In this document: positions 3,001 to 50,800 of the stretch, one piece after another
How positions within the stretch are numbered: position 1 is the stretch's first letter
Layout: every line of letters starts with the position of its first letter
DNA from: Hirsutella rhossiliensis
Lineage: Eukaryota; Ascomycota; Sordariomycetes; Hypocreales; Ophiocordycipitaceae
NCBI RefSeq assembly: GCF_020360975.1
Contig: NW_025408689.1
Coordinates: 434,001 to 498,000, forward strand
DNA: 64,000 nt
Reading direction: 5' to 3'
Notes under the pieces: generated by a model
Databases searched by the model: none
The model's input: the letters and a program-made list of their open reading frames with translations, nothing else
Told to the model about the DNA's origin: nothing
Program-made: the position numbers and the translations under genes

Positions 3001-4269
3001 ATTAACTGCCTACTCGAGGAAGAAGAAGTTATCTATATACGCCTTCTACTAGGCTTCTAATAGCTAGGAAAGGTTCTACGGCTTAGGAAAGCTCTATACG
3101 GATTACGAAGATCACCCCTTCTTTAGCAATAGCATTTAATAGGTTCCCTCGAAGCCCTAGGCTTTAAGAAAGTCCCTTAGGAACCGTGTATAATATAGAA
3201 GGGTAAAATCACGGTCTTCTTCTACGTCGATAATATTATCTAGGCATACCCGAAAGAGGAAGAAGCTACTATAAGGGAGGCTATACGTGGCCTGCAATAA
3301 AGGTATAAGATAACCCGGCTAGGGGAGCTAAAGTGGTTCCTAGGGATACGAATCCTTCGGAATAGGTCCTAACGGACTATCTAGCTTACCTAAGACGCCT
3401 ATATCGATAAGGTCGCGTATAAATTCCTCCTTAATTCCCTCGATAAGAAGCTTCCCTCTACGCCTATATTAGACGAAGAGCTTTTACCTAATCCGTCCTT
3501 TAAGCTAGGAGTAAGAGAAACACTAATATTAATAGAAGGTAGGCTCCTGCTTTTTCAGCTATTTCTACTAAACCGGATATCTTTTACGGTCTCCCGGCTA
3601 GCTAGGCATAACTAGAATCCTAGCCCTAGGCATTAAGAAGCAGCAGACAGAGCTATCCTTTATCTCTATTCAACGAGATTATATAGTCTGCGCCTAGGAG
3701 GGCAGGGAAGGAAACAAGCTGCCGAAATCTTCCTTTATTCGAGCGATTCGTCCTTTACGGATAATTCCTTAGATAGAAAGAGCTTATAAGGGTATATTAT
3801 ATCCCTTTTTAGAGGAACTATTACTTAGAGAGCTTCGAAGCAGGCCACCGTTACGACTTCTAGTACGGAGGCAGAGCTACTAGCTCTTTTAGAAGCGTTA
3901 AAAGAAGCGATTTTCCTTAGCCGGCTATTAATATCTCTACGACTGTAAATTCCGACCCTATTAGCTATAGAATGCGATAACACGTAGACTATACGAATTC
4001 TTACGGAAAATAGTAAGCTGTCGACCCGGCTACGGCATATCGATATCTACTAGCATTGGTTACGCTAAGAGGTCTAAAGGGGACTTATTTCCGTCCGTTA
4101 GGTTCTAACGGCATCAATAAAAGCCGACGGTCTTACGAAGCCCCTGCCGAAGCAAAAGCTAGCTGTCTTTTTATAGCAAATAGGGCTAGAAGACGTTCGA
4201 GAGAAGCTGTCCTTAGAGGCCCGCCTTAAGAGTCTACGAGAGGAGCTAATAGCACGTACGAGAAGGTAA
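1..4269 (+). pseudogene. Copia A gag-pol polyprotein, RIP-degraded
   Basis: Decayed Ty1/copia polyprotein. In order: an Ala/Pro-rich gag linker (about 60-240); a zinc knuckle at about 419-465 reading CLAY..GYRLSQY, where Cys and His have become Tyr; integrase core from about 1420 (FFIDVFLG) to 1690 (NGGAERLG, the glutamate motif) with its C-terminal part to about 2050; an acidic Glu/Asp-rich linker (2160-2400); reverse transcriptase about 2780-3500 with LIAIAAEFDLEL and the catalytic YVDD decayed to YVDN (about 3225); RNase H about 3740-4130 with SSTEAELLALLEALKEA and LTASIKADGLTKPL. The likely original stop is TAA at 4267-4269. Nearly all internal stops are TAG/TAA at expected Gln or Trp positions. 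Some frame changes may be real. It cannot make a functional protein. Confidence 0.9.
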
Positions 4270-4550
4270 CGTCTATAGCCGAAGAAAAGGAAGAGGTTTT
4301 TCCCTTTAGAGGGCCCCCTATTTTAATTAGGTTTTTCCCTTCTAAGAAGGCCCCCTTCTTATAGGACTTTCCCCTCTTTAGGCCCCTTTTCCTTAAGTAG
4401 GTCTAAAAGAGCCTAGGGACCCGAAAGGGCCCCTGCTTTCCTCGAGTAAAGGGAGAAGTGCAGAGCTAAGAACCTCCTCTATACGCTCACTAGCCCGAAG
4501 CCGTATTAGCTATGCCCTTACTATAAGGGCAGGCCATAGCTAAGGGGGTG
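4270..4550 (+). other. Copia A 3' untranslated region with polypurine tract
   Basis: Noncoding stretch between the pol stop and the 3' LTR, with short repeated motifs (agggccccct, tttttcccttt) also present in N, F and E. It ends in the purine run taagggggtg (4541-4550) directly before the LTR start. Such a tract primes plus-strand DNA synthesis in LTR elements. The same tract precedes the 3' LTR of E, N, F and B. Confidence 0.8.
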
Positions 4551-5037
4551 TGTCGCGAAGCGTGGCCTGATTTCGCAGTTCTCGGAGATATCCCTTAGCA
4601 AGAGGGACCAAGGAAGCTGAAAAACACCCGGTGTAGAAGAAGGAAGAAGGAGCTGAAAAGAGGTGCAGAAAGGAGGGTGGGGGCATAAGGGGAAGCAGAA
4701 GTGGCGATGGCTTCCTATAGAGGTAGCGAGAGATAAGACGGATGTGCCGGTAACGGCTAGAAAGGAGGGGAAAAACCGGCAAAAAGCTCGGTAGTCGAAA
4801 GGACATTAGTGGCTTCTTTAAGCAGGATCTTCTTTGTTAATTAAGATGCTAGAAGGGTATAAAGAGGGGCGTTGGATAGAGGAAAGAAGGACAATTAAGG
4901 CAATAAAACAATCACTCCCCTGCCGCAATTGCTGCTCCCGTAAGATTCAAATATCTCTGCCCTGCCTGTCCGACCCCTTACTTTTACTTTTACCTTCGTG
5001 TATTTTATATGCACTTCTCGCATCTCTCTACGCGAGA
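4551..5037 (+). repeat. Copia family 1 LTR, 3' copy of element A
   Basis: Long terminal repeat of 487 bp starting TGTCGCGAAG and ending CGCGAGA. It matches the LTRs at 7198, 9718, 19177, 27282, 30286, 33450, 41473 and 47336. The short open frames on either strand here (4540-4806 minus, 4834-5052 plus) recur in other LTR copies and are not genes. Confidence 0.93.
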
Positions 5038-7052
5038 AGTCTAGCTATATAACGGTTCGTTTAGAAATTCGTCTCTTAGTCTTCCCTTAGCTATAGTATT
5101 TATATTTAACGGTCTTTAGGCCCTTTATTTATATACCTTATTATTAGCCTATCTTATATAAAGCCAGGGGGCCTAGGTAACTAAGTTATACGTACTAAAG
5201 AAGATAGTCTTTATAAGCTACTAAAAGAGGGTCTTTTAAACCTACCTTCCTTTAAGTAAAGAAAGCTAACTTCTTAAGTAGTTCCTTCTTATAACTAGGT
5301 TAGAATTTAAGAATAAATTAACTAAATCTTTCCTCGATAAGCTTAATCGTTTAATTCTTTTAGACTAGCCTTATAAGCTTAGACGTTATATCTTAAAAGA
5401 TTCCTTTCTTATAAAGAAGGTAAAAGGAAATTAAGCTTATTAAAAATTAAGGGTAAAAAGCGACCCTTTTTCGTCGAAGAATTTATATAGACCTATTAAG
5501 TAATTATATTATAAATTTACCCTTCTATATCCCTCTATTTATATAGTTAATTTCCTAGTAATAAAGTATGCCCTTTATACTTTCTTAAAGGACTAAAAGT
5601 ATAAAAGTATATAATAGATATTAAGGGATATATTAAAGTTAAGGATAGCTAATTTTTATAGGAGATAGTTAGAGGGCTTTAATAGTTAGTCTTACTAATT
5701 TATAAGGAAGATAAGGGCTAGATTTACGATACTAACGATTTTTCCTTAAATTTATAGTTTAAATAAAAGCATCGGCGTTATTAGTTACTATTTCTTAGTA
5801 ACTTAAATCTTATCTATCTTCTTTTATAATAACGGGTCCTCTTTAAGAGACTATTATACTATTTCTTATAGCCTCTTTAAAGGGTTAACTCCTTTAAGTC
5901 GGTTTTCCTTAAAGACCTACTAGTATTATAATAACTAATAGCCTAGGGATTTATATACTAAGCAGCTATTTAATTTAATCTTTTATTTCTTTAAGGAATC
6001 CCTATCTTAATTTAAAAGGTTTACTTAAAAACCCCTTCTTTTTACCCCTTATTACTAATTTTAATAAAGAGGTTTAATTTTAATTAGTTCCTTAATTTTT
6101 CGACTAATAAACTAAAAGGTCTATTAAGAGACTAGTTAAGCTAGTTTAACTAACGGGACCGGGGCCGGGCCTAGAGTAAGAGGCGGAGCTAGGGCTAGGG
6201 CTATAGCTATAGTTAAAGATAGCGTTAAGGCTCTTAAGGGAGGAGGAGCTAGAAGGGTAGTAGCTATAGCTATAGTAGTAAGGGCTATAGTAATAAGGGC
6301 TATAGTAGCTATAGGGGTAGTAGGTTAAACCGTCTAAGTTAGGTGCTAGCTATAAAGGAATAAGACTACTTACTATTATACTATAATAGCCTCTTTATTT
6401 AGTTCTTAGTTAGCTTCTTAAAAGATAGTTAAGTAACTATTATTAATAGGCTTTATTAGTAGAGATATATCTTATAGCTACTAGCTAGAAAGAGCTTTTA
6501 TTAAGAAGTATTAGTTAGCTTCCTTTAGGATTTCTTCTTACTTAGCTAGCTATAAAGAAGTTAGTAGGTTCTTAGTAGAAAAGGCTCTTAGATAGGCTAT
6601 ATAAGACTTCTTAATATAGTTAGTTATATAGCCCTTTAAGGGAGCTATTAAGGTCTCGAGCTTTAAAAGCTACTACTTAAGAGTCTCTTTTTCTTAAAGA
6701 GTAATTAGTTTTATAGTATTAATAGATTCTATTATTACTATATAAGTAGTAGTTCGTAGCTTTATCTTATAAAGGCATTCCTTATAGTAACTCTTATAGT
6801 TACCTAAGGTAGTAGAAAAAGCTCTTTACTATATTAAGGTTAGCTTAGAAAAGAGGGAAGCTCCCTTTATAAATTTTATTACCCTAAGATAAAGAGGGGG
6901 CTTAAGAGGGTCCTATTTATTATAAAAGACTAAATTATAGATAGTTTTATTTAAATAAGCCTATAGTTCCTTTATCTACTTATCTTAATCTTAGGGCTTT
7001 ATAAGAATCGTCTTATAGATTATAAGGGTAGTAGAGTAGTTATTTTTTAATA
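5038..7052 (-). pseudogene. Copia C gag to integrase N-terminal part, RIP-degraded
   Basis: Remnant of a family-1 gag-pol frame on the minus strand. The start corresponds to the ATG of copy B; here it reads ATA (7050-7052), a TG-to-TA change. Gag, the Ala/Pro-rich linker (about 6150-6310, now dominated by agctat repeats) and the region leading to integrase can be followed by alignment with copy B. The frame is full of TAA and TAG. The apparent simple repeat agctatagctatag in the linker is best explained as a GCT/GCA alanine-codon run converted by RIP. Confidence 0.8.
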
Positions 7053-7197
7053 TTATTATAAGAGAGGGGGTAGAAAGGTTAATTAAAAATTAGCTTTTTT
7101 AGTAAGAGGGGTAAAAGGAAGTAATAAAGGATATAAGAAAGGTGCCTTTTATAGTAGCTAAAAGGTATAAGAATACTATTCCTCCTAGGCTTATAAT

Positions 7198-7655
7198 TCT
7201 TATAAAGAAAGATATAAAAAGTATATATAAAATATATAAAGGTAAAAAAAAAAGTAAAGGGTAAGATAGGTAAGGTAGAGATATTTAATTCTTTTAAAAG
7301 TAGTAATTATAATAAGGGAGTTATTTTTTTTCCCTTTTATTTAATACCCCTCTTTATACCTATTAAGTATCTTAATTAATAAAGAAGATCCTACTTAAAG
7401 AAGCTACTAATATCCTTTTAACTACTAAGCTTTTTACTAGTTTTCCCCCTCCTTTTAAGCTATTACTAGTATATCTATCTTATCTCTTACTACCTTTATA
7501 AGAAGCTATCGCTACTTTTACTTCCCCTTTTACCCTTACCTTTCTTTTTATACCTCTTTTTAGCTCTTTCTTTAAAACTAATTTTTTAGCTTCCTTAGTT
7601 CCCTTTATTAAGGGATATCTCTAAGAACTATAAAATTAAGCTATACTTTGCGATA
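7198..7655 (-). repeat. Copia family 1 LTR, 5' copy of element C
   Basis: LTR of about 458 bp on the minus strand, strongly AT-enriched. Its ends read tcttataaag on the left and ctttgcgata on the right, the RIP versions of the family ends. The tRNA-like primer site lies just to its left (about 7180-7197). Confidence 0.88.
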
Positions 7656-26970: not shown

Positions 26971-27281
26971 GAAGGGGATATTTATAGCTAAAGAAAGGAA
27001 TTAGGACTTATCTTAAAGGAGGGCCCCTAGTTTAATTAGGACTTATTCTTCTTAAAGGCCCCCTTTTTAAGGACTTATCTTTAAAGAAGCCCCCCTTTTT
27101 TATAAGACTTAATTTCCTTCTTAGGCCCCTTTTTCCTAAATTAAGTTTAAAAGAGCCTAGGGCTAAAACCCGGATTTCTTAAGTAAGGGATAAGTATAGA
27201 CTAAGACCTCCTCTATACGCTTACCGGCCTAGGTATTTAGCTTTACCGTTTCTATAAGGGTAGGCTATAGCTAAGGGGGTA
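26971..27281 (+). other. Copia E 3' untranslated region and polypurine tract
   Basis: Noncoding region corresponding to 4270-4550 of A, with repeated aggactta/cccccttttt blocks. It ends in the purine tract gctaagggggta before the LTR. Confidence 0.75.
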
Positions 27282-27758
27282 TATCGCGAAGCGTAGCCTA
27301 ATTTTATAGTTCTTAGAGATATCCCTTAGTATAAAGGACCTAGGAAGCTAAAAAACAGGTTTTAAGGAAGGAGCTAAAAAGAGGTATAAAGAAATAGGTA
27401 GGGGTAAAAGGGGAAGTAAAAGTAGCGATAGCTTCTTATAGAGGTAGTAAAAGATAAGATAGATATACTAGTAACGGCTAGAAAGGAAGGGAGAAACTAG
27501 TAAAAAGCTTAGTAGTTAAGAGGATATTAATAGCTTCTTTAAGTAGGATCTTCTTTATTAATTAAGATACTAAATAGGTATAAAAAGAAGCGTTAGATAA
27601 AAGAAAGAAGGATAATTAAGGTAATATAATAATTACTCCCCTACCTTAATTACTACCCTTATAAGATTTAAATATCTCTGCTTTACTTATCTATACCCTT
27701 ACTTTTACCTTTACCTTTATATATTTTATATATACTTCTTATATCTCTCTTTATAAAA
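27282..27758 (+). repeat. Copia family 1 LTR, 3' copy of element E
   Basis: 477-bp LTR ending ctttataaaa and followed by the target copy agaag (27759-27763). Confidence 0.92.
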
Positions 27759-30090: not shown

Positions 30091-30285
30091 AGAAAGAGAA
30101 CTATTATTATAGTAGACCTACTATTATATAGGCCTAAGCTTTAATTTCCTTTTATATATAATTAAACTTCCCTCTATATATAATAACTAAGGTTTCCTTA
30201 AGATAAAAGGAAACTTTAGTTAAGGGATTATATAAGCTATAATTAGGTTTTAATAAATATTAATCTTTATAGCTAGCTATATAAT
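30091..30285. other. AT-rich sequence between L tandem repeat and lone LTR
   Basis: About 195 bp with an imperfect inverted pattern around ggtttccttaagataaaaggaaac (arms ggtttcctt and aaggaaact near 30190-30215). No coding seen. Confidence 0.4.
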
Positions 30286-30764
30286 TATCGCGAAGTATAG
30301 CTTAATTTTATAGTTCTTAAAGATCTCCCTTAGTATAAGGGACCTAAGAAGCTAGAAAAAACCGGTTTAAAAGAAGGAGCTAATAAGAGGTATAAAAAGA
30401 AGGGTAAGGGTATAAAGGGAAGTAAAAGTAGCGATAGCTTCCTATAAAGGTAGTAAGAGATAAGACGGATATACTAGTAACGGCTAGAAAAGAAGGGAAA
30501 AACTAGTAAAAAGCTCGGTAGTTAAAAGGATATTAGTAGCTTCTTTAAGTAGGATCTTCTTTATTAATTAAGATACTAAATAGGTATAAAAAGGGGCGTT
30601 AAATAAAGGAAAGAAGGATAATAAAAGCAATATAATAATTACTCCCTTATTATAATTACTGCCCCTATAAGAATTAAATATCTTTACCTTACTTATTTAA
30701 CCCCTTACTTTTACTTTTATATTTATATATTTTATATATACTTCTTATATCTCTTTTAATAAGA
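30286..30764 (+). repeat. Lone copia family 1 LTR (M)
   Basis: About 479-bp family-1 LTR without copia internal sequence on either side: no polypurine tract to the left and no primer site to the right. The flanking five bases, ataat (30281-30285) and agttt (30765-30769), do not match, so it is not a simple solo LTR, or its right end is rearranged. The right terminus is the least certain part. Confidence 0.82.
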
Positions 30765-32178
30765 AGTTTAAAGACTAAAAGTAAACTAATAAAATAGTTT
30801 ATAATATAAAAAAACTTTTAGGCTATAAAGGGATTCTAGAAATCTAATAATAAGTTAACTTAAAAATATATAAAAAAGAAAATAAAGTAAGACTTACTCT
30901 TTTTATTACTCTTAAAGAACGCTTTTTACTACCTAAACTACTAAGGTTAAGTATACTTTAAGTACTTATAGCTTAGAAAATATTAATTAAATAGCTATAC
31001 TAAAGTATCTTTAAAAGTATTAAAATACTAATACTTCTTAGTTTTATAATAGTTAGTATATAAGAGTAGTTAAGGTTAAGAAGATTAAAATACCTTTTAG
31101 TCTTACTTAAGTACTTTTTTAATTCCTTAAAAAGGTTACTTATTATTAAACTAACCGCTAAACTTAAGCGACTTATTACTTTTATTAATATAAAATATAA
31201 TCTTACTAATTTATTAAGCTTTATTCTCTATCTTAGTATTAATATCCTTTTAATTAATATCCTTTTTAGTAAGAGTATCCTTATTAAGGATTATATCGCC
31301 CTATAATACTAATAGGTAAAGTATTTTTTTTAACTTAGTTTAATTATTAACTAAGTAGAAAACCAGATTATTTTTAATTAATATAAAGATTAATTTATCT
31401 CCTATAGTTACTACTTAATACTTACTACTTACTTTTAATTTTATAAGTGTCTTTAGTAATTATAGTAGCCTTTTCTTCTTTACTTATATTTATCTAGGCT
31501 ATAAAGGACTAGACTTTCTTTCTTAATCGTATAATAGCTTAATATATTATATTCTTAGCTATTTTAAAGATCTTTTTATTATTAGTTATCTTAGTAACGC
31601 AATCGTATACTTTCTTTATATTTTTATTTATTAATAGGGTATCTTCTACCTTTTATTTTTTTTAAAGGTAAACTAAATAAATAGCCTATTATAGATTAGT
31701 ATAAAGATTAGTATAAAGTAAATAAGAGTATTTTAGAACTCTTACTATATTACTATCGCTCTTAATTATTTATAGAGAAGAGAGTAAAGAAATATAAAAA
31801 TATCTAAAATTTTTAGCTAGAATATTATATAAAATAAAAAGATATATAACTTACCGTTTAATATATAGTATTAATATAGGTATTAAAAGTAAAATAAAAA
31901 TTCCTAATACTAAATAAAGACTAAATCTTTACTTTATACTAACCTACTTTTTACTAGAAATTAATTAGGTTAATAGATCTTCGTAACTAAATAACTATAT
32001 TTTAATTAGCTAAGAAGCTTATTACTACTAGCTTATTTTATCTTAACTTTTTTTTTCCTTCTTTAATAAATATATACTTACTTATAGCCGCTAAGTCTTT
32101 AAGGTTAGTATACTATCTATATATAAATAGCCTTATATTAATATACTAATTATTTATAGTAATCTCGCTTTTAGTTTT
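30765..32178 (-). other. AT-rich degraded region, possible minus-strand coding, unassigned
   Basis: About 1.4 kb of very AT-rich sequence. On the minus strand, runs without TGA and with stops only at putative Gln codons can be followed, for example FKIAKNIIY near 31560, then VVTIGDKLIFILIKNNLVFYL near 31380 and further Lys/Asn-rich sequence to about 30800. This hints at a decayed transposase or other protein, but in sequence this AT-rich such runs are weak evidence and I can name no family. No LTR or terminal inverted repeat recognised. Confidence 0.3.
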
Positions 32179-33449
32179 ATAGTATACGGCTGGTTTTTTA
32201 GCTAGCTAACTAGCGGAAAGACTCTCCTTAGCTAGAATATAAATACTAGCGGGAAAACTAAGGATAAAGGTAAAAGGAAATTAGTTAAGCTAGTAAGTAT
32301 TTTTAAGCGTAAATAAAGATTTAAGCTAAGTAGTAAGTCTTTATTTATCTTTTCTTACTTAAACGTAATAAGACTTAAGTATATTTCTTTCTTAGATTAT
32401 CTACTAATTTTAATATTAGCTATTACTTTACGCGAAATTTAAAAGTTCTAGTAAATTCCTAACTTACTTATCCCTTATACCTTATTCGCCTACTTTATTT
32501 AAGAGGTTATATAAGATATTACTCCTAGCCTTTATATCTAAAAGGTAGTATTAGTTACTTACTAAGAGTTAGTAAAGAGTATACTAGCTATTATATTTTA
32601 AGGTATTATAGGCTACGCCTATAAAAAGCTAAGGTTATACTATAGCGACTATATTAAAGTTAGGCTAAAGTAGACCTATATATAGGCAGAGCTTAACCCG
32701 AACTTAGGCTAAATAGTACCTAAATATAGGTCGAGCTAAGGACTAAGGAAGATAAATAACTATCGCGACTAAGATAGAGTTTTCCTCCTTTCTCCTTAGC
32801 TTTAGATAAATAATTATTCGGCCCTATACTACTATATAAAGTATACGCTAGCCCTTAATATATTTAAAGCTCTATTTAGATAAGGCTATAAAGCCTAGAA
32901 AGAGATTAAACTAAAAGGATATAATATAGATATCCCGACGACCTAAAGGAGGGAGAATAGGCCTAAGGATAGTAAGGAGTAGTAATAGGAGGGCTAGACG
33001 CCCGGCTAATAATAAAGTAAGTAATACTCTCGCTATAGGTAGGAGAGGTAGAGATAAGGTATTAGGTAATATAGAGCTAACTATAGATATAAGAACTAAT
33101 TAGCTAGATTAAAAGGATATACTAAAGGATAGATAAACCGATATAAATAGGTATATAAGAGGGGGCTAAGGGTAGGGTAGGTGGTTTAATACCGCCCTTA
33201 AGGGTAATAGGGGGGGCAGCGACGCCTATAATTAAAGGGGAGGTAGTAAGGAAGAATAGCTATAAGAAGCCTCTCCTAAACCTAGGAAAATTTAATAGAT
33301 AACAATAGCACTATACCCTATAAGCATAATATATATAGGAGAAGTATAAGATCGATAAAGAATTCTTCTTAAGCTTAAGGGAAATCTTCTACCTTATCTA
33401 TAACTACTTAGACGCTAGGCTATAATAAACGGTCGCTATATACTATAGA
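32179..33449 (+). pseudogene. Histone H3/CENP-A-like protein with long C-terminal extension, RIP-degraded and truncated
   Basis: Plus-strand frame whose stops are all TAA/TAG at probable Gln/Trp codons. Codons 32419-32670 (84) align with the histone fold of H3: TLREI (H3 ALREI), KFQ (RYQ), LLI, then F, EVI-Q-D (REIAQD), L-I-Q (LRFQ), Y-Q-E (LQE), L-F (YLVGLF), and a final YSDYIKVR (PKDIQLAR). The first about 66 residues need no gap; loop 2 looks two residues shorter than H3. Loop 1 has H3 length. Upstream is a Lys/Ser-rich tail of about 80 codons without the ARTKQTARKS start; the initiator may be ATA at 32179. Downstream about 260 codons stay in frame and are rich in Gln, Arg, Gly and Tyr, up to copia N at 33450. 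Whether it was a host gene or a transposon-borne gene is unknown. The frame beyond about 33010 is less certain. Confidence 0.65.
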
Positions 33450-33937
33450 TATCGCGAAGCGTGGCCTGATTTTATAGTTCTCGGAGATATCCCTTAGTAA
33501 GAGGGACCAAGGAAGCTAAAAAACACCCGGTATAGAAAAAGGAAGAAGGAGCTAAAAAGAGGTATAGAAAGGAGGGTAGGGGTATAAGGGGAAGCAGAAG
33601 TAGCGATAGCTTTATATAAAGGTAGCGAGAGATAAGATAGATATACCGGTAACGGCTAGAAAGGAGGGGAAAAAACCAGTAAAAAGCTCGGTAGTTAAAA
33701 GGATATTAGTAGCTTCTTTAAGTAGGATCTTCTTTATTAATTAAGATTCTAGACGGGTATAAAGAGGGGCGTTAGATAAAGGAAAGAAGAAAAATTAAGG
33801 CAATATAATAATTACCCCCTTACCGTAATTGCTACTTTAGTAAGAATTAAATCTCTCTGCCCTACCTATCCGACCCCTTACTCTTAATTTTACCTTTATA
33901 TATTTTTTATATACTTCTTATATCTCTCTTTACGAGA
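33450..33937 (+). repeat. Copia family 1 LTR, 5' copy of element N
   Basis: 488-bp LTR from tatcgcgaag to tacgaga, followed by the primer site gttataaacctaggag. Confidence 0.92.
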
Positions 33938-34079
33938 GTTATAAACCTAGGAGGAATAAAATTCCTATACCTTCCGGCTACTATAAAAGGCACCTTTCTT
34001 ATATCCCTCGTAGCTTCCTTTTACCCCTCTTACTAGAAAAGCCGATTTTTAACCGACTTTTCTACCCTTCCCTATAATA

Positions 34080-37000
34080 ATAACGAAAACCGACTCCTCT
34101 ACCGTCCCTATAGTCTATAGGACGATTCTTATAGAGCCCTAAGATTAGGATAAGTAGGTAAAGGAGCTACGGGCTCGTATAGATAGAACTATCTATAATT
34201 TAGTCTTCTTTAATAAGTAGGACCTTCTCGAGCCCCCTCTTTGTCCTAGAGCAACGGAATTTATAGAGGGAGCGTCCCTCTTCCCCGAGCTAACCTCTAT
34301 ATAATAAAGAGCTTTTTCTACTACCTTAGGTAACTATAAGAGTCACCGTAAGGCATACCTTTATAAGACGAAGCTACTAACTACTGCACGTATAGCGATA
34401 ACGGAATCCGTTAGTACTATAAAGCTAATTACTCTTTAAGAGGAAGAGACTCCTAGGTAGTAGCTTTTAAAGCTCGAGACCTCGATAGCTCCCTCGAAGG
34501 GCTATATAACTAACCGTATTAGGAAGACCTATACGGTATACCTAGGAGCCTTTTCTACTAGGAACCTACTAGCTTCTTCGTAGCTAGCTAAGTAGGAAGA
34601 GATCCTCGAGGAAGCTAACTAATACTTCCTTATAGAAGCTCTTTCCGGCTAGTAGCTATAGGATATATCTCTATTAATAAAGCCTATTAGTAACGGTTAC
34701 TCGACTATCTTTCGAGAAGCTAGCCGGGAACTAAACGAAGAGGCTACTAGAGTATAATAGTAAGTAGTCTTATTCCTTCGTAGCTAGCACTCGACCTAGA
34801 CGGCTCGACCTATAGCTGCTATAGCCCCTATTACTACGGCCCCCGCTACTGCTATTGCGGCTATTGCTCCTTTAGCTCCTCCTCCCTTAAGAGCATTAAT
34901 ACTATCTTTAACGGCTGCCGTAGGCCCGGCCCCGGCTCCGCCTCTTGCTCCGGGCCCGGCCCCGGTCCCGTTAGTTAGACCGGCCTAACTAGTCCCCTAA
35001 TAGACCTTTTAGTCCGTTAGTCGAAAAATCAGGGAACTAGTCGAAATCGAACCTCTTCGTTAAAATCAGCAATAAGGGGTAAAAAGGGGGGGTTTTTAAG
35101 CAGACCTTCTAGACTAGGACGAGGATTCCTCGAAGAAACGAACGAGGAGGAATCGACCTACCTACTAAGTATATAAAAAGCCCTATCGGCTAGAGGACTA
35201 CTAGTAGGTCTTCGAGGAAAACCGACCTAAAGGAGTTAACCCTTTAAAGAGACTACGAGAAATAGTATAATAGTCTCTTAAGGAGGACCCCTCGTTATAG
35301 AAGAAGATAGACGAGATTCGAGTTACTAGGAAATAGTAACTAACGCTGCTACTATAAATTCAAGGAAAAATCGTTAGTATAGTAAATCCGGCATTCGTCT
35401 TCCCTACGGATTAGTAAGACTAACCGTTAGGACCCTCTAACTATCCCCTACGAAAATCAGCTATCCTTAACTCTAGTACTTCCCTCGATATCTATAATAT
35501 ACTCTTACGATTCCGGTCCTTTAAGAAAGCATAGAAGGAATATCTTATTGCCGGGGAATTAACTATATAGATAGAGGGATATAGAAGGGTGAATTTTACG
35601 ATAAAATTACCTAACGGATCTATGCGAATTCTTTAAAGGAAAAGGGTAGCTTTTTGCCCTCGATTTTTAACGAGCTTAATTTCCTTCCGCCTTCTTCGAG
35701 AAGAAGGAATCTTCTAGGATATAACGTCTAAGCCTACGAGGCTAGTCTAGAAGAATTAGACTATCGGGCTTATCGAGGAGAAATTCGGTTAATTTATTCT
35801 CGAATTCTAACCTATTTATAGGAAGGAACTACTTAAGAAGTTAGCTTTCCCTACTAAGAGGAATAGGTCTACTATAAAGGACCCTCTTCCGGCAGCCTAA
35901 GGAGACGGTCTTCTTTAGTACGTAAGACTTAGTTACCTAGGCCCCCTAGCTTTATATAAGCTAGGCTAATAATAAGGCGTACGAATAAGGGGCCTAAAGA
36001 CCGTTAAATGCGAATACTACGGCTAAGGAAAGACTAGGAGACGAATTTCTAGACGAACGCTTTTACGGCCGGACTAGCCGTATAAGGAAATTTAGGTCGA
36101 CTAGACTAACGTCTCTAAGGATTAGGAAAGCTTCGTTAGGGTAATGTTTTTTATAGACGCTTTTTTAGGGATAGTTTTCCCCTATTTCTTATAGACCTAC
36201 TTAAGTAAGTATAACTAGTCTGCCCTCCTAGACTTTATTAACTAGATAAAATCCTACTTTAGCTACGAGGTAAAGAAGATACGGTCTAACGAAGAGCTAT
36301 TTACGAAGGATATCTTAAATTAGCTTTAAAAAAGGGGCATTTTACCCCTCCCGTTAGTACCGAATACCTAGGCCTAGAACGGAGGGGTAGAAAGATTAGG
36401 GGGTGCTATAATAGAAAGGGCCCGTACAATAAGACTTACTATAAGGCTTCCCTACGACCTTTAGAGGGAAGTCGTTAAGACCGCCTATTACCTATAGAAC
36501 CGGACCCCTAGAGGGACTACCTAAGGAATAGACTAGAAATCCCCCCTCGAGCTCTTTATAAAGAAGAGGGCCTCGCTAGCCTACCTTCGTGACTACGGCT
36601 ATAAGGTATACGCAATAACTACCGATATATAGCTAAAAAGGAAGAAGAAAAGAAAGCTTAATCCTAGAGCCTTTATTAGTTACCTCGTTAGTTATAATTC
36701 TACGAATATCTTCCGGATCTAGATTCCTCTTCTATAGAAGGTTATTTCGACTAGGGATATAATTTTCGACGAATCTAGCTTCTTCGATAGAAAGAGGGAT
36801 TAATAGCCCCTCTTACTCTTATAACGTTAGCTAATTTAGAAGATCTAAATTCCCCCGTCCTAACAGTCTTAAGAAGAGGCCCTAGACGAGGAAATAAAAG
36901 AAGAAACCGACGTTAAAGTAGTCGAGGATACCGCCGACTTCGAAGAAGAAGAGGAAGCTGCTAGATTAGATAATCTAGACGAAGAAGGAGACTATAGGAA

Positions 37001-41947: not shown

Positions 41948-42224
41948 CACCCCCTTAGCTATAGCCTGCCCTTATAGAAAGGGTAAAGCTAAATACCTAG
42001 GCCGGTGAGCGTATAGAGGAGGTCTTAGTCTATACTTATCCCCTACTCGAGAAATCCGGGTTTTGGCCCCGGGCTCTTTTAGACCTACTTTAGGAAAAGG
42101 GGCCTTAAGGAGGAAATTAAGTCCTGCAAGAAAGGGGGGCTTCTCTAAGGACAAGTCCCTAAAAAGGGGGCCTTTAAGAAGAACAAGTCCTAATTAAGCT
42201 AGGGGCCCTCCTCTAGGACAAGTC

Positions 42225-45200
42225 CTAATTCCTCTCTTCGGCTACAGACGTCTCCTTCCTCCTACGTGCTATTAGCTCCTCTCGTAGACTCTTAAGGCGG
42301 GCTTCTAAGGACAGCTTCTCTCGAACGTCTTCTAGCCTAATTTGTTGTAAAAAGACAGCTAGCTTCTGCTTTAGCAGGGGCTTCGTAAGACCGTCGGCTT
42401 TCATCGATGCCGTTAGAACCTAACGGACGGAAATAAGTCCCCTTTAGACCTCTTAGCGTAACCAATGCTAGTGGATATCGATATGCCGTAGCCGGGTCGA
42501 TAGCTTACTGTTTTCCTCCGTAAGAATTCGTATAGTCTGCGTGTTATCGCATTCTATAGCTAACGGGGACGGAATTTGCAGTCGTAACGATATTAGTAGC
42601 CGGCTAAGGAAAATCGCTTCTTTTAACGCTTCTAAAAGAGCTAGTAGCTCTGCCTCCGTACTTAATGTAGTGACGGTAGCTTATTTCGAAGCTCTCTAAG
42701 CAATGGTTCCTCTAAAAAGGGACATAATATACCCCTGTGAGCTCTTTCTGTCTAAGGAATTGTCCGCAAAGGACGAATCGCTCGAATAAAGGAAGATTTC
42801 GGCAGCTTGTTTCCTTCCCTACCCTCCTAGGCGCAGACCATATGATCTCGTTAAATAGAGATAAAGGATAGCTCTGTCTACTGCTTCTTAATGCCTAGGG
42901 CTAGGATTCTAGTTATGCCTAGCTAGCCGGGAGACCGTAAAAGAGATATCCGGTCTAGTAGAAATAGCTAAAAAAAGCAGGGAGCCTACCTTCTATTAAT
43001 ATTAGTGTTTCTCTTGCTCCCTAGCTTAAAAGGACAGATTAGGCAAAAGCTCTTCGTCTAATATAGGCGTAGAGGGAAGCTTCTTATCGAGGGAATTAAG
43101 GAGGAATTTATAAGCGACCTTATCGATATAGGCGTCCTAGGTAAGCTAGATAGTCCGTTAGGACCTATTCCGAAGGATTCGTATCCCTAGGAACCACTTT
43201 AGCTCCCCTAGCCTAGTTATCTTATACCTTTATTATAGGCCTCGTATAGCCTCCCTAGCAGCAGCTTCTTCCTCTTTCGGGTAGGCCTAGATAATATCGT
43301 CGACGTAGAAGAAGACCGTGATTTTACCCTTTTATATTATATACGGTTCCTAAGGGACTTTCGTAAAGCCTAGGGCTTCGAGGGAACCTATTAAATGCTA
43401 TTGCTAAAGAAGGGGTGATCTTTATAGTCCGTATAGAGCTTTCCTAAGCCGTAGAACCTTTCCTAGCTGTTGGAAACTAGGAGGAAGTCGTATATAGATA
43501 ACTTCTTCTTCCTCGAGTAGGCAGTTAATAAAGGCGTTAACTGCATCTATCTAATCGAGCTCGAGGTCGAATTCTGCTGCTATAGCTATAAGGGTCCGAA
43601 AAGACATCCTAGCTAGGGTGGTTGCCCTAGTAGGTAAATCCCCTTTTTCCTATTAATTCCTATAGATAACTAGCCGGGCCTTGCACTTTTAAAGGAAGCC
43701 GTGTTTATTAGTCTTATAGATAAAGACCTACTTATAGCTAAGGACCTGTTTTCCTCTTGCTTTTTCCTTAAGGACCTCTTCGAAACACCCTATCTCTTCG
43801 TGTAAGGCTAGGTGGTCTTTCTAGGCCTGGAAAAACTGGTCTCTAAAAGGGTGTTTTTCTAGCTGCTTCTGGTTTGCTGGTGGGTCCGGGAGGTCTCTTT
43901 TATGTACCTTCCTTGCTGATACTGGCTTGAAAAGCCGGCCTGCTATGAACGCTCCGTGGGAACCGTCTTCTATTGGCGTTAGGTAGAAGTTAGAAAAAGG
44001 ATCGAAATAGGGGAGAGGTTAGTCTTCTTTAGTATCTATATCGGGCCCTATACCTTCCTTTGCTTCTCGAAGCAGGGATAAAAAGGCAGCCGGGTAATCC
44101 TTCGAGAGAGGTGCCTTTCCTACCCCCTTAGGGGCCGAGACGGGAAGACTAACTAAAAAGGCTGCTTCTAGATCTTCTTCTTACGTAGGAGGAGGCGTAG
44201 GTAGGTAGGCGTATTCTAGCTCTACCGCTTTCCTATAGTCTCCTTCTTCGTCTAGATCATCTAATCTAATAGCTTCCTCTTCGAAGTCGGCGTTATCCTC
44301 GACTGCTTCGACGTTGGTTTCTTCTTCCGTTTCCTCGTCTAGGAATTCTTCTTAAGACTGTTAGGAAGGGGGGATTTAAATCTTCTAAATTAGCTAACGT
44401 TAAGAGAGTAAGAGGGGCTATTGATCCCTCTTTCCGTCGAAGAAGCTAGATTCGTCGAAAATTATATCCCTAGTCGAAATAACCTTCCGTAAAAGAGGAA
44501 TCTAGATCCGGAAGATATTCGTAGAATTATAACTAACGAGGTAACTAATAAAGGCTCTCGGATTAAGCTTTCTTTTCTTCTTCCTTTTTAGCTGTGCATC
44601 GGCAGTTATTGCGTATGCCTTGCAGCCGTAGGCACGAAGGTAGGCTAGCGAGGCCCTCTTCTTCGTGAAGAGCTCGAGGGGGGATTTCCAGTCTGTTCCT
44701 TGGTTCTTAAAAAGGGTCTCTAGGTCCCTATAGTCCCTTAGTCCCCTAGGGTCCCTTAGGGTCCGGTTCCGAAGGTAACAGGCGGTCTTAACGACTTCCC
44801 TCCAAAGGTCGTGTGGAAGCCTTGCAGCAAGTCTTATCGTACGGGCCCTTTCTATCACAGCACCCCCTGATCTTTCTGCCCCTCCGTTCTAGGCCTAGGT
44901 ATTCGGTGCTAACGGGAGGGGTAAAATGCCCCTTTTTCGAAGCCAATTTAAGATATCCTTCGTAAATAGCTCTCCGTTAGACCGTATCTTCTTTACCTCG
45001 TAGCCGAAGTAGGATTTTATCTAGTTAACGAAGTCCCGGAGGGCAGACTAGTTATGCTTACTTAGGTAGGTCCGTAAGAAATAGGGGAAAACCATCCCTA
45101 AAAAAGCGTCTATGAAAAACATTACCCTGACGAAGCTTTCCTGATCCCTAGAGACGTCGGTCTAATCGACCTAAATTTCCTCACACGGCTGGTCCGGCCG

Positions 45201-47202
45201 TAAAGGCGTTCGTCTAGAAATTCATCTCCTAGTCTTTCCTTAGCCGCAGTGTTCGCATTCGACGGTCTTTGGGCCCCTTATTCGTACGCCTTATTGTTGG
45301 CCTAGCTTATGCAAAGCTAGGGGGCCCGGGTGACCAAGTCGTGCGTGCTAAAGAATGCCGTCTCCTTGGGCTGCTAGAAGAGGGTCCTTTGTGGTAGACC
45401 TATTCCTCCTAGCAGGGAAAGCTGACTTCTCGAGAGGTTCCTTCCTAGGGATAGGTCGGAATTCGAGAATAAATTGACCGAATTTTTCCTCGATAAGCCC
45501 GATGGTCTGATTCTTCTGGACTAGCCTCGTAGGCTTAGACGTCGTATCCTAGAAGATTCCTTCCTTTCGAAGAAGGCGGAAGGAAATCAGGCTCGTTGAA
45601 AATCGAGGGCAAAAAGCTACCCTTTTTCGTCGAAGAATTCGTATAGATCCGTTAGGTAATTTTATCGTGAAATTTACCCTTCCGTACCCCTCTATCCGTA
45701 CGGTTAATTCCCCGGCAATAAGGTATTCCCTCCGTGCCTTCTTAAAGGACCGGAATCGTGAGAGTATATTGCAGATGTCGAGGGAAGCACCGGAGTTAAG
45801 GATAGCTGATTTTCGTAGGGGATAATCGGAGGGTCCTAACGGTTGGTCTTGCTGATCCGTAGGGAAGACGAATGCCGGATTTGCTATACTAACGATTTTT
45901 CCTCGAATTTACGGCTCGAATAAGGGCAGCGGCGTTAGTTGCTATTTCTTAGCAACCCGAATCTCGTCTATCTTCTTCTATAACGAGGGGTCCTCCTTAA
46001 GAGACTGTTGTATCGTTTCTTATAGCCTCTTTAAAGGGTTGAATCCTTTAGGTCGGTTTTCCTCGAAGACCTGCTAGCATTGTGATAATCGATGGCCTAG
46101 GGATTTGCATGCTAGGCAGCCGTTTCGTCGTCTGGTCTTCTGTTTCTTCGAGGAATCCTCGTCCCGATCCGGAAGGTCTGCTTAAAAACCTCCCCTTTTT
46201 ACCCCTTATTGCTGATTTTGACGAAGAGGTTCGATTTCGACTAGTTCCCTGATTTTTCGACTAACGGACTAAAAGGTCTATTAGGGGACTAGTCGGGCCG
46301 GTCTAACTAACGGGACCGGGGCCGGGCCCGGAGCAAGAGGCGGAGCCGGGGCCGGGCCTAGGGCAGCCGTTGATAACGGTGTTAATGCTCTCGAGGGAGG
46401 AGGAGCCGAAGGAGCAACAGCCGCAGCAGCAGCAGCGGGAGCCGCAGCAACAGGGGCTGCAGCAGCTGCAGGGGCAGCAGGTCGAGCCGTCTAGGTCGAG
46501 TGCTAGCCACGAAGGAACAAGACTGCTTGCTGTTGTACTCTGGCAGCCTCTTCGTCTAGTTCCCGCTAGCCTCTCGAAAGATAGTCGAGTAACCGTTACT
46601 AATAGGCTTTATTAGCAGAGATATATCCGTAGCCACTGGCCGAAAGAGCTTCTATAAGGAAGTATTGGTTAGCTTCCTCGAGGATTTCTTCCTACTTAGC
46701 TAGCCACGAAGAAGCTAGCAGGTTCCTAGCAGAAAAGGCTCCTAGGTAGGCCGTATGGGTCTTCCTAATACAGTTATTATATAGCCCCTCGAGGAGCTAT
46801 CGAGGTCTCGAGCTTTAAAAGCCACTGCCTAGGAGTCTCTTCTTCTCGAAGAGTAATTAGCTTTGCGGCACTAACGGATTCCGTTATCGCCGTGCGTACA
46901 GCAGTTAGCAACTTCGTCTCGTAAAGGTATTCCTTACGGTAACTCTCGTAGTTACCTAAGGCAGCAGAAAAAGCTCTCTATTATGCAGAGGTTAGCTCGG
47001 AGAAGAGGGAAGCTCCCTCTGTAAATTCCGTTGCCCTAGGACGAAGAGGGGGCTCGAGAGGGTCCTGCTTGTCAGAGAAGACCAAATTGTGGATAGTTCT
47101 ATCTACACGAGCCCGTAGCTCCTTTACCCACTTATCCTAATCTTAGGGCTCTGCAAGAATCGTCCTACGGACCGTAGGGGTAGCAGAGTCGTTTTTCGAC
47201 AT
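42225..47202 (-). pseudogene. Copia B gag-pol polyprotein, lightly RIP-mutated
   Basis: Ty1/copia polyprotein of about 1,650 codons on the minus strand. It starts at ATG 47200-47202 (MSKNDSATPTVRRTILAEP) and probably ends at TAG 42225-42227. Gag fills about 47202-46150, with an Ala/Pro-rich linker at 46500-46300 and a zinc-knuckle region near 46120. Integrase lies about 45130-44510; its C-terminal part is uninterrupted at 44858-44502 (MIERARTIRLAARLPHDLW to NSTNIFRI), including an extra block against A that contains FKNQGTDWKS. An acidic linker (about 44340-44180), reverse transcriptase (about 43760-43050; catalytic region near 43290 reads YVDDII) and RNase H (about 42800-42380) follow. Remaining stops are mainly TAG/TAA at Gln/Trp codons, so it is still a pseudogene. 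The catalytic aspartates appear intact, unlike in A, E and N. Confidence 0.88.
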
Positions 47203-47319
47203 CGTTGCGGAAGAGGGGGGGCAGAAAAGTCGGTTAAAAATCGGCTTTTCTAGTAAGAGGGGTAAAAGGATATAAGAAGGTGCCTTTTGCAGCAGCCGGA
47301 AGGTATAGGAATTCTATTC

Positions 47320-47335
47320 CTCCCGGGCTTATAAC
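47320..47335 (-). promoter_or_regulatory. Primer-binding site of copia family 1
   Basis: Sense sequence gttataagcccgggag directly after the B 5' LTR; the same site follows the LTRs of E, N and C. If the A of TTATAAGC is a RIP change, the site was GTTATGAGCCCGGGAG. Its complement contains CUCAUAAC, the anticodon region of initiator Met-tRNA. Several copia-type elements prime from a tRNA-iMet fragment cut in the anticodon loop. The identity is inferred, not tested. Confidence 0.55.
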
Positions 47336-47811
47336 TCTCGCGAAGAGAAATGCGAGAAGTGCATAAAAATGCACGAAGGTGAAATTAGAAGTAAGGGGTT
47401 AGACAGGCAGGGCAGAGAGATTTGATTCTTGCGGGAGCAGCAATTGCGGCAGGGGAGTGATCATTATATTGCCTTAATTCTCCTTCTTTCCTCTATCTAA
47501 CGCCCTTCTTTATACCCGTCTAGCATATCAATTAATATAGAAGATCCTGCTTAAAGAAGCCACTAATGTCCTTTCGACTACCGAGCTTTTTGCCGGTTTT
47601 TCCCCTCTTTTCTAGCCGTTGCCGGCACATCCGTCTTATCTCTCGCCACCTCTATAGGAAGCTATCGCGACTTCTACTTCCCCTCTTGCCCCCACCCTCC
47701 TCTCTGCACCTCCTTTTAGCTCCTTCCTTAAAACCTGTTTTTCAGCTTCCTAGGTCCCTCGTGCTAAGGGATATCTCCGAGAACTGCGAAATCAGGCCAC
47801 GCTTCGCGACA
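47336..47811 (-). repeat. Copia family 1 LTR, 5' copy of element B
   Basis: 476-bp LTR, nearly identical to 41473-41947. Confidence 0.94.
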
Positions 47812-47816
47812 TTAGT

Positions 47817-50800
47817 AGCTATTTAACTTAATCGTTTTATTTATAGCTAATATAGTATCGTAAATATTATTTAAGCGTTTAGTTAAGTCGTTCTATTTAT
47901 CTATCTATTTATAGGTAATAAGCTATACTAAGCTTATATTTTCGTCCTTAATTATACTATAAGAGCTTACTAAAACTTAGCTATAAATATACTTCCTCTA
48001 TTAGAGATAATCTTATTTAGTAGTCTATAATTACTAATAATTATTCGTAGGAATATATATACTAGCTCTTTTATATTACTTACTTCTTTATATAGTAAAA
48101 AGTATCTATACTTCGTTAATCTATCGGTAATAACGAATATACTATCGTACTTAACGTTAGTTATAGGTTCTTTTAACGGTAGTAGCTTTATAATATAGTC
48201 GAAAGCTATTAAATCCTATAGTTTCTCTAGTACTAGTAGCGGTTATAATTCTCTATATAGTTGATATCGTTTAGCTTTACTTTATACGTAAAGTTCGTAT
48301 TCTTTAATAACTTATCGTACTACTTCCTTAAGCTATAGGAAGTTATATTATCGTTTAATCCCTTCTATTATTCTTTAGATTCCTTAGTATCTATATATTA
48401 AATATTCGTATATATCTTATATAACTTTATCTTATAATTTTAGTAGTATCTAGATTTTATTTTTATATATTAAAACTTCTAAATATCCTATATCGTATCC
48501 GTTTAGTGCTTCGTATTCTTTTATCTATTTTAGGATCTTTTAGTATATTAAGTTATCGGGTTATACTTTAAATATTATATTTAGCTATCGTTGCTAGTAG
48601 TTCCCGTTTTTATTAATTTCTAGGAGCTATCCTTTCGCTATAGGTGCTCTTATATCGTAGTTACTTCGTCGACTAAGGGCATTAGCTCGACCGTTTTCTA
48701 TTCCTTTTCTATAGATTATTTTATAGTCGAATTCCGATAAATATTCGGCCTATTAGATCTATCGTCCGTTTAACTATTACGTCGTTATAAAATATAAGAT
48801 ATTCTTATAATCTATATAGACCTTAACTTTATATTTACTTCTAAGAAGGTAGTATCGAAATTCCTTAAAAGCTTAAATAATTACGAGGAATTCTTTATTA
48901 TAGATAGGGTAATTAAGTTCTACGCTATATAGCTTTTTCGAGTAGAATATAATTAGTTATAGTCTTCCTTTATTATCTTTTTATCCGATTTATACTCCTA
49001 AAGTAAAGTCTAATATATTAGTTTTAAGTTCGATTTATCGTTTTAGATTAAAGGTAGTTAAGACTAGTTCTTACGTAATCGTAGTTTTAATATATTTAAA
49101 AGCTTCGTTAGCTTTATCGTCCTATATAAATTCTTTTTCCTTCTTCGTTAAGTTATATAGTAGTACTATAATTTTTCCGAAATCTTTAATAAATCGTTAG
49201 TAGTAATTTATAAATCCTAGGAAACTTTATACGTCCTTAACGTTCTTTAGCGTTAGCTATTCTTTAACTAAGTTAATCTTATCTTATTATATACGTATCT
49301 CTCTTAGTAAGATCGTATATCTAAGGAAGTCTACTTCCTATATATAAAACTTACTTTTCTTTAGTTTAACTAGTAACTTTATATTCTAAAGTACGTAGAG
49401 TACCTTATAGACGTATTCCTTATATTCTTCTAGGGTATCTAAGAAGATTAGGATATTATCTAGGTATACTACTATAAAGATATCTAAGTATTTGCATAGG
49501 ATATTATTAATTATCCGTTAGAAGGTAGCTAGTATATTTATAAGTCTAAATAGTATTACTAGATATTCGAATAGTCCGAATTTCGTTTTAAAGGCTATTA
49601 TCTATTTATATCCCTTTTTTATACGTATTAAGTTATAGGCGCCTTTAAGGTCGAGGGCTATAAACTATTTTTTGCTATATAGTCGATCTTATAGTTCCGA
49701 TATAAGCGGTAATAGTATTCGGTCCTTTATTATAATATCGTTTAGGCGTTTATAGTCGATAACTAGTTATAGCTTACTATTTTTCTTTAAAATAAATATA
49801 ACTAGATAGCCTACTTTAGATATTAATATTTATATATATCCTTTTTATAGATTCTTATCGAGGTAGTCGCGTAGCGTTTATAGTTGCTTTTCGTTTAGGT
49901 TATAGATCTTATAGAACGTTAGCGTTATTCTATCCTTAAGATAAATTTCGTGGTCCTATTAGCTATATTTAGGTAACCCTATCTTAAGTTCTTCTTTAAA
50001 GAGTTTATTATATTTCCGGTATTCCTAGGGGATGTTCTTTATTTTATCTTATAGGGTTTATTCTTTCTCTTAAGAGCTAGTTTCTCTTAACTCGAGCTCT
50101 TTATTAATTTATTTAAGGTCTTTCCTTAGAGTAGTAATAACTCTTTAGATCTTTATATTATATCCTTTATTCTATTTATATCGGGTGCTAGGTTATATAG
50201 CTATATTAGTTAGTATATAGGTCTTATTAGTCGATTTTATTATATCCGCCGGTTCGGTTACTATTTTCGTCTATATTACTAAAGCCCGTAATAATTTACT
50301 TAAACGGTTATCCCTTTTATCCTATTTAGTAGCTAAATTATTATAAAATTTTACTTTCTTCTAAATCTACTAGTCCTAGAAACTTATATCTTCGTTCTAA
50401 TATAGCTAGCTAGTTTTCTAGTTAATTAGTAGGTTGCTCTCCTATAGCTATAGAAGTCTTAATATAAGGTTATATTCTTTAATATCTATAATATCGAAGT
50501 TAACTTATTTATCGTAGCCCTAGATATTAATATCGAGGTAATTAATCTCTATATTAATAATTCCGTTATTATAGTTAAAGGCCTCTCCTTCGATATTCGT
50601 AAGTTTATATAGATCTATCTTATATCTCTATATAAGTCGGTAACGATTAACGACTCTAGGTAAAACGTAATTACCTATCGCGCTATAGTCTAAAAGTATA
50701 TATACGTAATATCCCGCGATTTAGATATCTAATACTATTTAGTCGCTATAGCTTACCGTTACTATATATAGGGTCCTTAGATCTTATCGTATCGTGCTAG

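Follow-up and report, generated by a model that had tools for sequence, protein, structure and literature searches.

The reading frame at positions 32179-33449 raises the question of whether this fungal genome once encoded a single, unusually long histone at this place, or whether sequences of separate origin have come to share one frame. The first-pass annotation had proposed a decayed histone H3/CENP-A-like protein with a C-terminal extension of about 260 codons. Our analysis leads, with high confidence, to another answer, namely that a hAT-type DNA transposon of 8.1-8.3 kb bore an additional, H3-like gene (H3L), of which this is a dead copy, and that an LTR element was later inserted into it. 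The window, meaning the whole stretch of 64,000 nucleotides that was analysed (C23:434001-498000), lies within an 81.8 Mb genome and is mostly of 20-40% GC. No ORF of at least 120 codons was found in the window, and Rfam and tRNA scans of it were empty. It was also noted that GC islands of 42-51% at 1-5000 and 42001-48000 lack any ORF of this length, and that three copies of a repeat unit of about 480 bp are present (27281-27753, 30280-30757 and 33444-33930).

The histone signal and the sequence inserted behind it

The window frame was defined as frame 1 of 32179-33449 with TAA and TAG read as Gln. In a search of PDB, its residues 82-142/143 matched chains of H3 (best E 9.4e-4), with 147 distinct sequences at E<=1; of the alignments listed, 60 in number, none extended beyond residue 143. 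Compared with the host's own H3, the same frame scored 35.0 bits over H3 residues 50-106, as against at most 29.3 bits in 30 dinucleotide-Markov randomisations of the window. These two scores, together with the PDB match to H3, indicate that the histone signal exceeds chance, and the histone fold that had been proposed for the window was thereby upheld. The proposed profile check likewise came out in its favour, with Pfam Histone weak in the window copy (E 0.9) but exceeding the curated threshold in a sister copy, L050 (E 7.7e-7). The E value of 0.9 speaks for a chance histone resemblance in AT-rich read-through sequence. However, no randomised window (0/30) reached the observed score, and the match improved to E 1.8e-23 against yeast H3 when sister copy L052 was used with the predicted introns removed and its stops read as Gln, so that the chance reading is refuted and retains a vanishingly small probability.

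The H3 fold had originally been traced over 32419-32670. This holds up to about 32605, where the histone match in the window ends, and fails beyond it, where a separate high-copy repeat takes over from 32604. Both the DIQLAR motif that had been read as the end of alpha-3 and the position of a loop 2 about two residues shorter than in H3 fall in this inserted repeat and are put down to chance; alpha-3 would really end in exon 3, outside the window. The repeat and its surroundings comprise the following features:

32599..32603, plus strand: 5-bp target duplication TAAGG, with its second copy at C23:509580-509584
32604..32860, plus strand: 5' LTR of about 257 bp, its left end common to 23 copies listed whose left flanks are unrelated
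32861..33449, plus strand: internal region of the retrotransposon, interrupted at about 33449 by another repeat
C23:466604-509579: insert of about 43 kb that parts the window's transposon copy into two halves and extends from within the window to beyond its end

A search with 32150-33500 yielded 1771 candidates, the best 40 of which, window included, were scored and matched 32604-33449 over nearly its whole length. Among the 39 copies besides the window, 35 start at query positions 443-455 and the rest at 420, 430, 436 and 462, which corresponds to about window position 32604. Of the 23 copies listed for the left end, three are out of register there by a few bases, and all run on past about 33449 with a common sequence that is absent from the window. 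As a separate observation, 33452-34800 is itself a high-copy repeat with 2503 candidates genome-wide.

The far side of the insert was found outside the window, where the window's element resumes on the same strand at C23:509587-510543. Over 129 bases, positions 4-132 of L093 are 91% identical to the inserted repeat at its positions 131-259 and form the 3' LTR; next come TAAGG and then TAAGTTAATA, what remains of the intron 2 donor and of the intron. Because the LTR match is accompanied by TAAGG on both sides, we conclude that an LTR retrotransposon with LTRs of about 257 bp was inserted here, the insertion point (32603/32604) splitting the initial GT of the H3L intron 2 donor. Later nested insertions would account for the insert having grown to about 43 kb.

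This bears directly on the supposed fusion of a histone fold with a long Gln/Arg/Gly-rich C-terminus (32419-33449). One frame can indeed be read through 32179-33449 with stops taken as Gln, as a single fusion protein would require. However, 32604-33449 is a high-copy repeat in its own right, whose copies begin sharply on the left next to unrelated sequence, TAAGG flanks the insert on both sides, and homologues with the same extension were absent among the sister copies, 15 of which go on past exon 2 with the intron 2 donor GTAAGT instead. The fusion reading is refuted and can be given hardly any credence. By sequence comparison, the extension of about 260 codons is the 5' LTR and leader of the inserted retrotransposon, and it was excluded as a protein.

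The H3L gene model

The gene was reconstructed from 17 aligned rows of the H3L region, in which counts per column refer to the rows with letters there. We read the model on sister copy L052, which is free of the retrotransposon insert. This copy (L039/L052), on the same contig as the window, is 87% identical to it up to 32605 and then continues differently; past exon 2, its sequence reads as an intron followed by the missing end of H3. The parts of the model are as follows:

32179..32332, plus strand: H3L exon 1, the N-tail, with presumed start ATA, ending inside the T45 codon in phase 1 (from aligned copies)
32333..32419, plus strand: H3L intron 1, 87 bp, GTAAGT...TAG, predicted from aligned copies
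32420..32602, plus strand: H3L exon 2, from alpha-N (ALREI) to the end of alpha-2 (E105 equivalent), from PDB and host H3 matches
C23:509635-509727, plus strand: H3L exon 3 of the window copy, a weak match (E 0.19) outside the window

Exon 1 of the window copy was matched in the genome at C23:466182-466343. In L052, intron 2 measures 55 bp and splits the codon of residue 106, and exon 3 then runs to the end of alpha-3. The predicted splice sites are well conserved among the copies, with the intron 1 donor GTAAGT in 14/15 rows and its acceptor TAG in 16/16, and the intron 2 donor GTAAGT in 15/15 complete rows and its acceptor in 15/15. All 12 rows that cover the presumed start codon carry ATA, presumably the RIP form of ATG. 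The N-tail as first described had taken in the in-frame 87-bp intron and was revised accordingly.

The spliced L052 sequence was aligned with yeast H3 over 107 residues (27-133 on yeast 21-127) without a gap across either junction. Loop 1 has the length of that of H3, as had been claimed, and the alignments show no loop-1 insertion of the CENP-A kind. Since the match to yeast H3 is gapless and loop 1 is of H3 length, H3L is to be classed, on its sequence, as H3-type rather than CENP-A-type. The CENP-A affinity suggested earlier was therefore dropped, and CENP-A identity was ruled out by the missing loop-1 insertion. The observation that stops replace Gln residues of H3 was confirmed: codons 62, 83, 92 and 100 of H3L map to H3 Q55, Q76, Q85 and Q93, and are stops in 16, 16, 16 and 14 of 16 rows, respectively.

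We also assessed the modifiable lysines of the N-tail. With the tail start aligned by eye, with a gap, from an inferred start, the K4 place holds CGG in eight, TGG in three and TAG in two of 13 rows, and the K9 place holds CTA in all 13; the K27 place is AAA in 14/14 rows. On this by-eye alignment, H3L would have carried Arg at the K4 place and Leu at the K9 place, codons which RIP cannot yield from those for Lys.

In L049 (3212-4175) and sister copies, the H3L frame was seen to extend beyond codon 144 by some 180 codons, into a Lys/Glu-rich stretch. H3L may thus have been a longer protein with a different tail, reached through an intron-like GTATAT...TACTAAC...TTTAG. The stretch is in the same frame, has a protein-like composition and splice-like sites (donor in 14/15 rows, acceptor in 13/15), and its genome matches fall, as far as compared, only at places of the H3L element family. 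Against this, codons 144, 146 and 151 are stops in 15/15 rows, codon 144 being about where H3 ends, and majority-stop columns number 18, 19 and 28 of 168-169 in the three frames, so that stop density does not set this frame apart. The stretch had no PDB match, and a search for homologues of H3L with this downstream sequence gave 21 proteins, the 12 compared of which share just the H3 part. We regard the longer protein as a minority possibility.

An amplified, RIP-damaged transposon with an H3-like gene inside

The part of the window to the left of the LTR insertion belongs to the carrier element:

30765..32605, plus strand: hAT-type transposon fragment, element coordinates 5487-7332 of 8296, the sole match in the window of the complete element (L072+L049)

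Searching the genome with 30900-32603 returned 25 matches, pieces and the window itself included. Two complete copies of the element, 8296 and 8071 bp long, were recovered, with H3L on the plus strand towards the right end. For the window's own transposon copy, the left 5.5 kb was looked for and not located. The right end ...CTTTTAAAGTCTA is common to 15 copies among the matches listed, one of them with a single base change (CTTTTGAAGTCTA), and the left end reads TAGACTT in 17 of the 18 fetched and GACTT in the other, with TAGACTT also in L072 and L073. Read inward from the ends, these form short terminal inverted repeats of TAG type, TAGACTTAAAAATACCC on the left and TAGACTTTAAAAGTGGG on the right. 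TAG-type starts are usual for hAT elements. Left and right ends of nine copies were paired by contig and strand, and all nine pairs are flanked by 8-bp target duplications, six exact (GTCGCTAG, GGAGCGGC, GTTGTGTC, ACGCCTAT, CCCGGCAC and CTATACTT), two with one mismatch and one with two.

The transposase was sought on the left side of the element. A hAT dimerisation domain (PF05699) was matched on the minus strand in the left part of L092 at E 0.012 and 15.9 bits, under the curated cut-off of 21.4. No such domain was found in L073, the other left part scanned with Pfam, and the minus-strand L092 frame found no match in PDB. Comparison with an intact hAT protein of the same genome (L094) gave no significant match, and the long frames of L095 are not hAT-like. 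On the right side, Pfam scans of two copies gave only Histone among the matches worth noting. The termini and duplications thus fit a hAT element, with the weak domain match pointing tentatively to its transposase.

A protein search of the genome returned 52 matches, which grouped by position into 16 H3L loci, the window's included; the same search also found the host H3 on C1 and the host CENP-A on C10. Four of the 16 copies are split by insertions. In-frame TAA or TAG occurs at all 16 loci, none of which has an intact coding sequence, and no stops occur in those exons of the host H3 and CENP-A genes that were matched. Across the 17 aligned rows of the H3L region, and with L052, itself among the least damaged copies, as the reference, C>T changes were counted in 216/294 cells at CpA (73%), 278/702 at CpG (40%), 157/1475 at CpT (11%) and 29/657 at CpC (4%). 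This pattern is that of RIP, with a clear share at CpG. Because the RIP-type change hits CpG as well as CpA, CG often stands as TA in the damaged copies. The earlier proposals that RIP had struck a once multicopy gene, and that a histone-fold gene was carried by a mobile element, were thus both borne out, the first by 16 copies with C>T changes strongest in CpA and the second by H3L lying inside an element with termini and 8-bp duplications.

Elsewhere in the genome, 473 candidates for hAT dimerisation domains were found, and 144 of the 150 scored (the best-scoring) lack an internal stop. Many other hAT genes appear untouched by RIP, compared with heavy RIP in the H3L element family.

We further weighed whether the locus could have arisen by duplication and decay of the host gene for H3 or CENP-A, with no link to a transposon. 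H3L is H3-like, and 36/84 core residues of host H3 (43%) equal those of L052, with an ESVES motif common to both. However, the H3L copies occupy the same place in one repeat family that has its own termini and target duplications, and the predicted introns are unlike those of the host genes. Host H3 has one intron in the K23-A25 region and one between L70 and V71, and host CENP-A has a single intron at the L70/V71 place; the H3L introns fall at different positions from all of these. A host duplicate is accordingly very improbable, and the plain host pseudogene was rejected in favour of a transposon-borne H3L. Compared with canonical H3, H3L is likewise gapless over the fold with a loop 1 of H3 length, and differs in its introns, in the predicted Arg at the K4 place and Leu at the K9 place, and in an N-tail that is six residues longer by the yeast H3 alignment, if the start is right. 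CENP-A shares a related histone fold, with 31/85 core residues of host CENP-A equal to L052 and five gap columns.

Relatives of H3L and what the element may mean

We sought relatives of H3L among fungal and metagenomic proteins. A family of H3-like proteins was picked by eye, from 14 new proteins of 24 in the L052 search and 17 of 279 in the P0037 search, 120 of which were listed. It includes P0034 from Rutstroemia (Leotiomycetes), P0042 from Tricladium, P0044 from Xylogone, and the metagenome proteins P0037, P0041, P0046, P0047 and P0085. Judged from the peptides, these five metagenome proteins contain apparent unspliced introns at T45 and E105/D106, the same two positions as those predicted for the H3L introns. 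H3L and P0037 have DLLIPRASFARL in common, and core identity to L052 is 41/85 for P0037 as against 36/84 for host H3. The family differs from H3L in having one to four extra loop-1 residues (the loop is truncated in P0034) and, in most members, a longer C-terminus of LxGYS or TGYSFPG type; P0041 and P0046 keep ARTK at the N-terminus. In a tree of 23 H3-type sequences, the H3L branch has about two changes per column and 13/20 inner branches are open, so that the tree decides nothing. Because loop 1 and ESVES resemble host H3 and the tree does not settle the placement, the tie of H3L to this family is a lead from sequence likeness rather than a result.

Comparable elements have been described twice in the literature searched (PMC3538342 and PMC6710886), and the available parts of PMC4994206 and PMC8616336 contain nothing further on hAT-borne H3. 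In the accessible text of Manning et al. 2013 (PMC3538342), Pyrenophora tritici-repentis is reported to have an H3L gene in a hAT element of about 5.6 kb, with a 2.3 kb form, in 26 nearly identical and mostly intact copies with ESTs, matching neither H3 nor CenH3 completely. Compared by description, that element resembles the present one in a hAT dimerisation domain, only weakly matched here, a further ORF and an N-tail altered here by prediction, and differs in that its H3L copies are mostly intact, whereas all copies found here are RIP-damaged. Dhillon et al. 2019 (PMC6710886), as far as the text was accessible, report hAT elements with H3-like sequence, inactivated by RIP, in Pseudocercospora fijiensis and five related species. 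In P. fijiensis, as here, the element is of hAT type with 8-bp duplications and an H3-like gene inside, its copies are inactivated by RIP and the host H3 is intact. However, the P. fijiensis element is 9.5-9.9 kb long and was counted as 471 elements that contain H3 in one copy or two, compared with 8.1-8.3 kb and 16 H3L copies here, and its H3 is reported as intronless, a captured transcript, in contrast to the one H3L with two predicted introns. In P. fijiensis, the second H3 copy is reported to have a 16-residue insertion, which may represent an intron left unspliced, as the one of 16 residues in P0037 appears to be.

The element in the window has an H3-like gene between hAT-type termini and is amplified (16 loci, with termini and duplications in nine copies). 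Judged against the accessible parts of both reports, it joins the known kind of hAT element with H3, differing in size, copy number and intron structure. The two predicted introns at positions absent from host H3 and CENP-A, and the Arg and Leu predicted at the K4 and K9 places, would be new details.

The history of the locus can be outlined conditionally. A hAT transposase encoded on the opposite strand, as the weak domain match suggests, would have moved the element by cut and paste, taking H3L along. While intact, H3L would have been spliced and translated into a variant H3 able to pair with H4 and without K4 and K9. RIP would then have silenced the copies of the element, and the LTR element would have arrived once H3L was already part of the transposon. 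The simplest account is that of a passenger gene that RIP destroyed along with its carrier. H3L might have had an anti-silencing role. In a more speculative version, which we consider doubtful, H3L would stem not from a recent capture of host H3 but from an old ascomycete H3-like lineage that has an altered tail and two introns of its own and that hAT elements have spread and maintained; Leu at the K9 place would be unmethylatable and would weaken heterochromatic silencing, and the captures in Pyrenophora and Pseudocercospora would represent one lineage rather than independent events.

This locus indicates that nested insertions and RIP can together mimic a fusion protein. If the predicted introns are real, the H3L found here did not arise from a transcript of the host's H3. 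If the H3L genes of several fungal classes form one lineage, a histone of their own would long have travelled with transposons, and whether they use histones against chromatin silencing would become a testable question.
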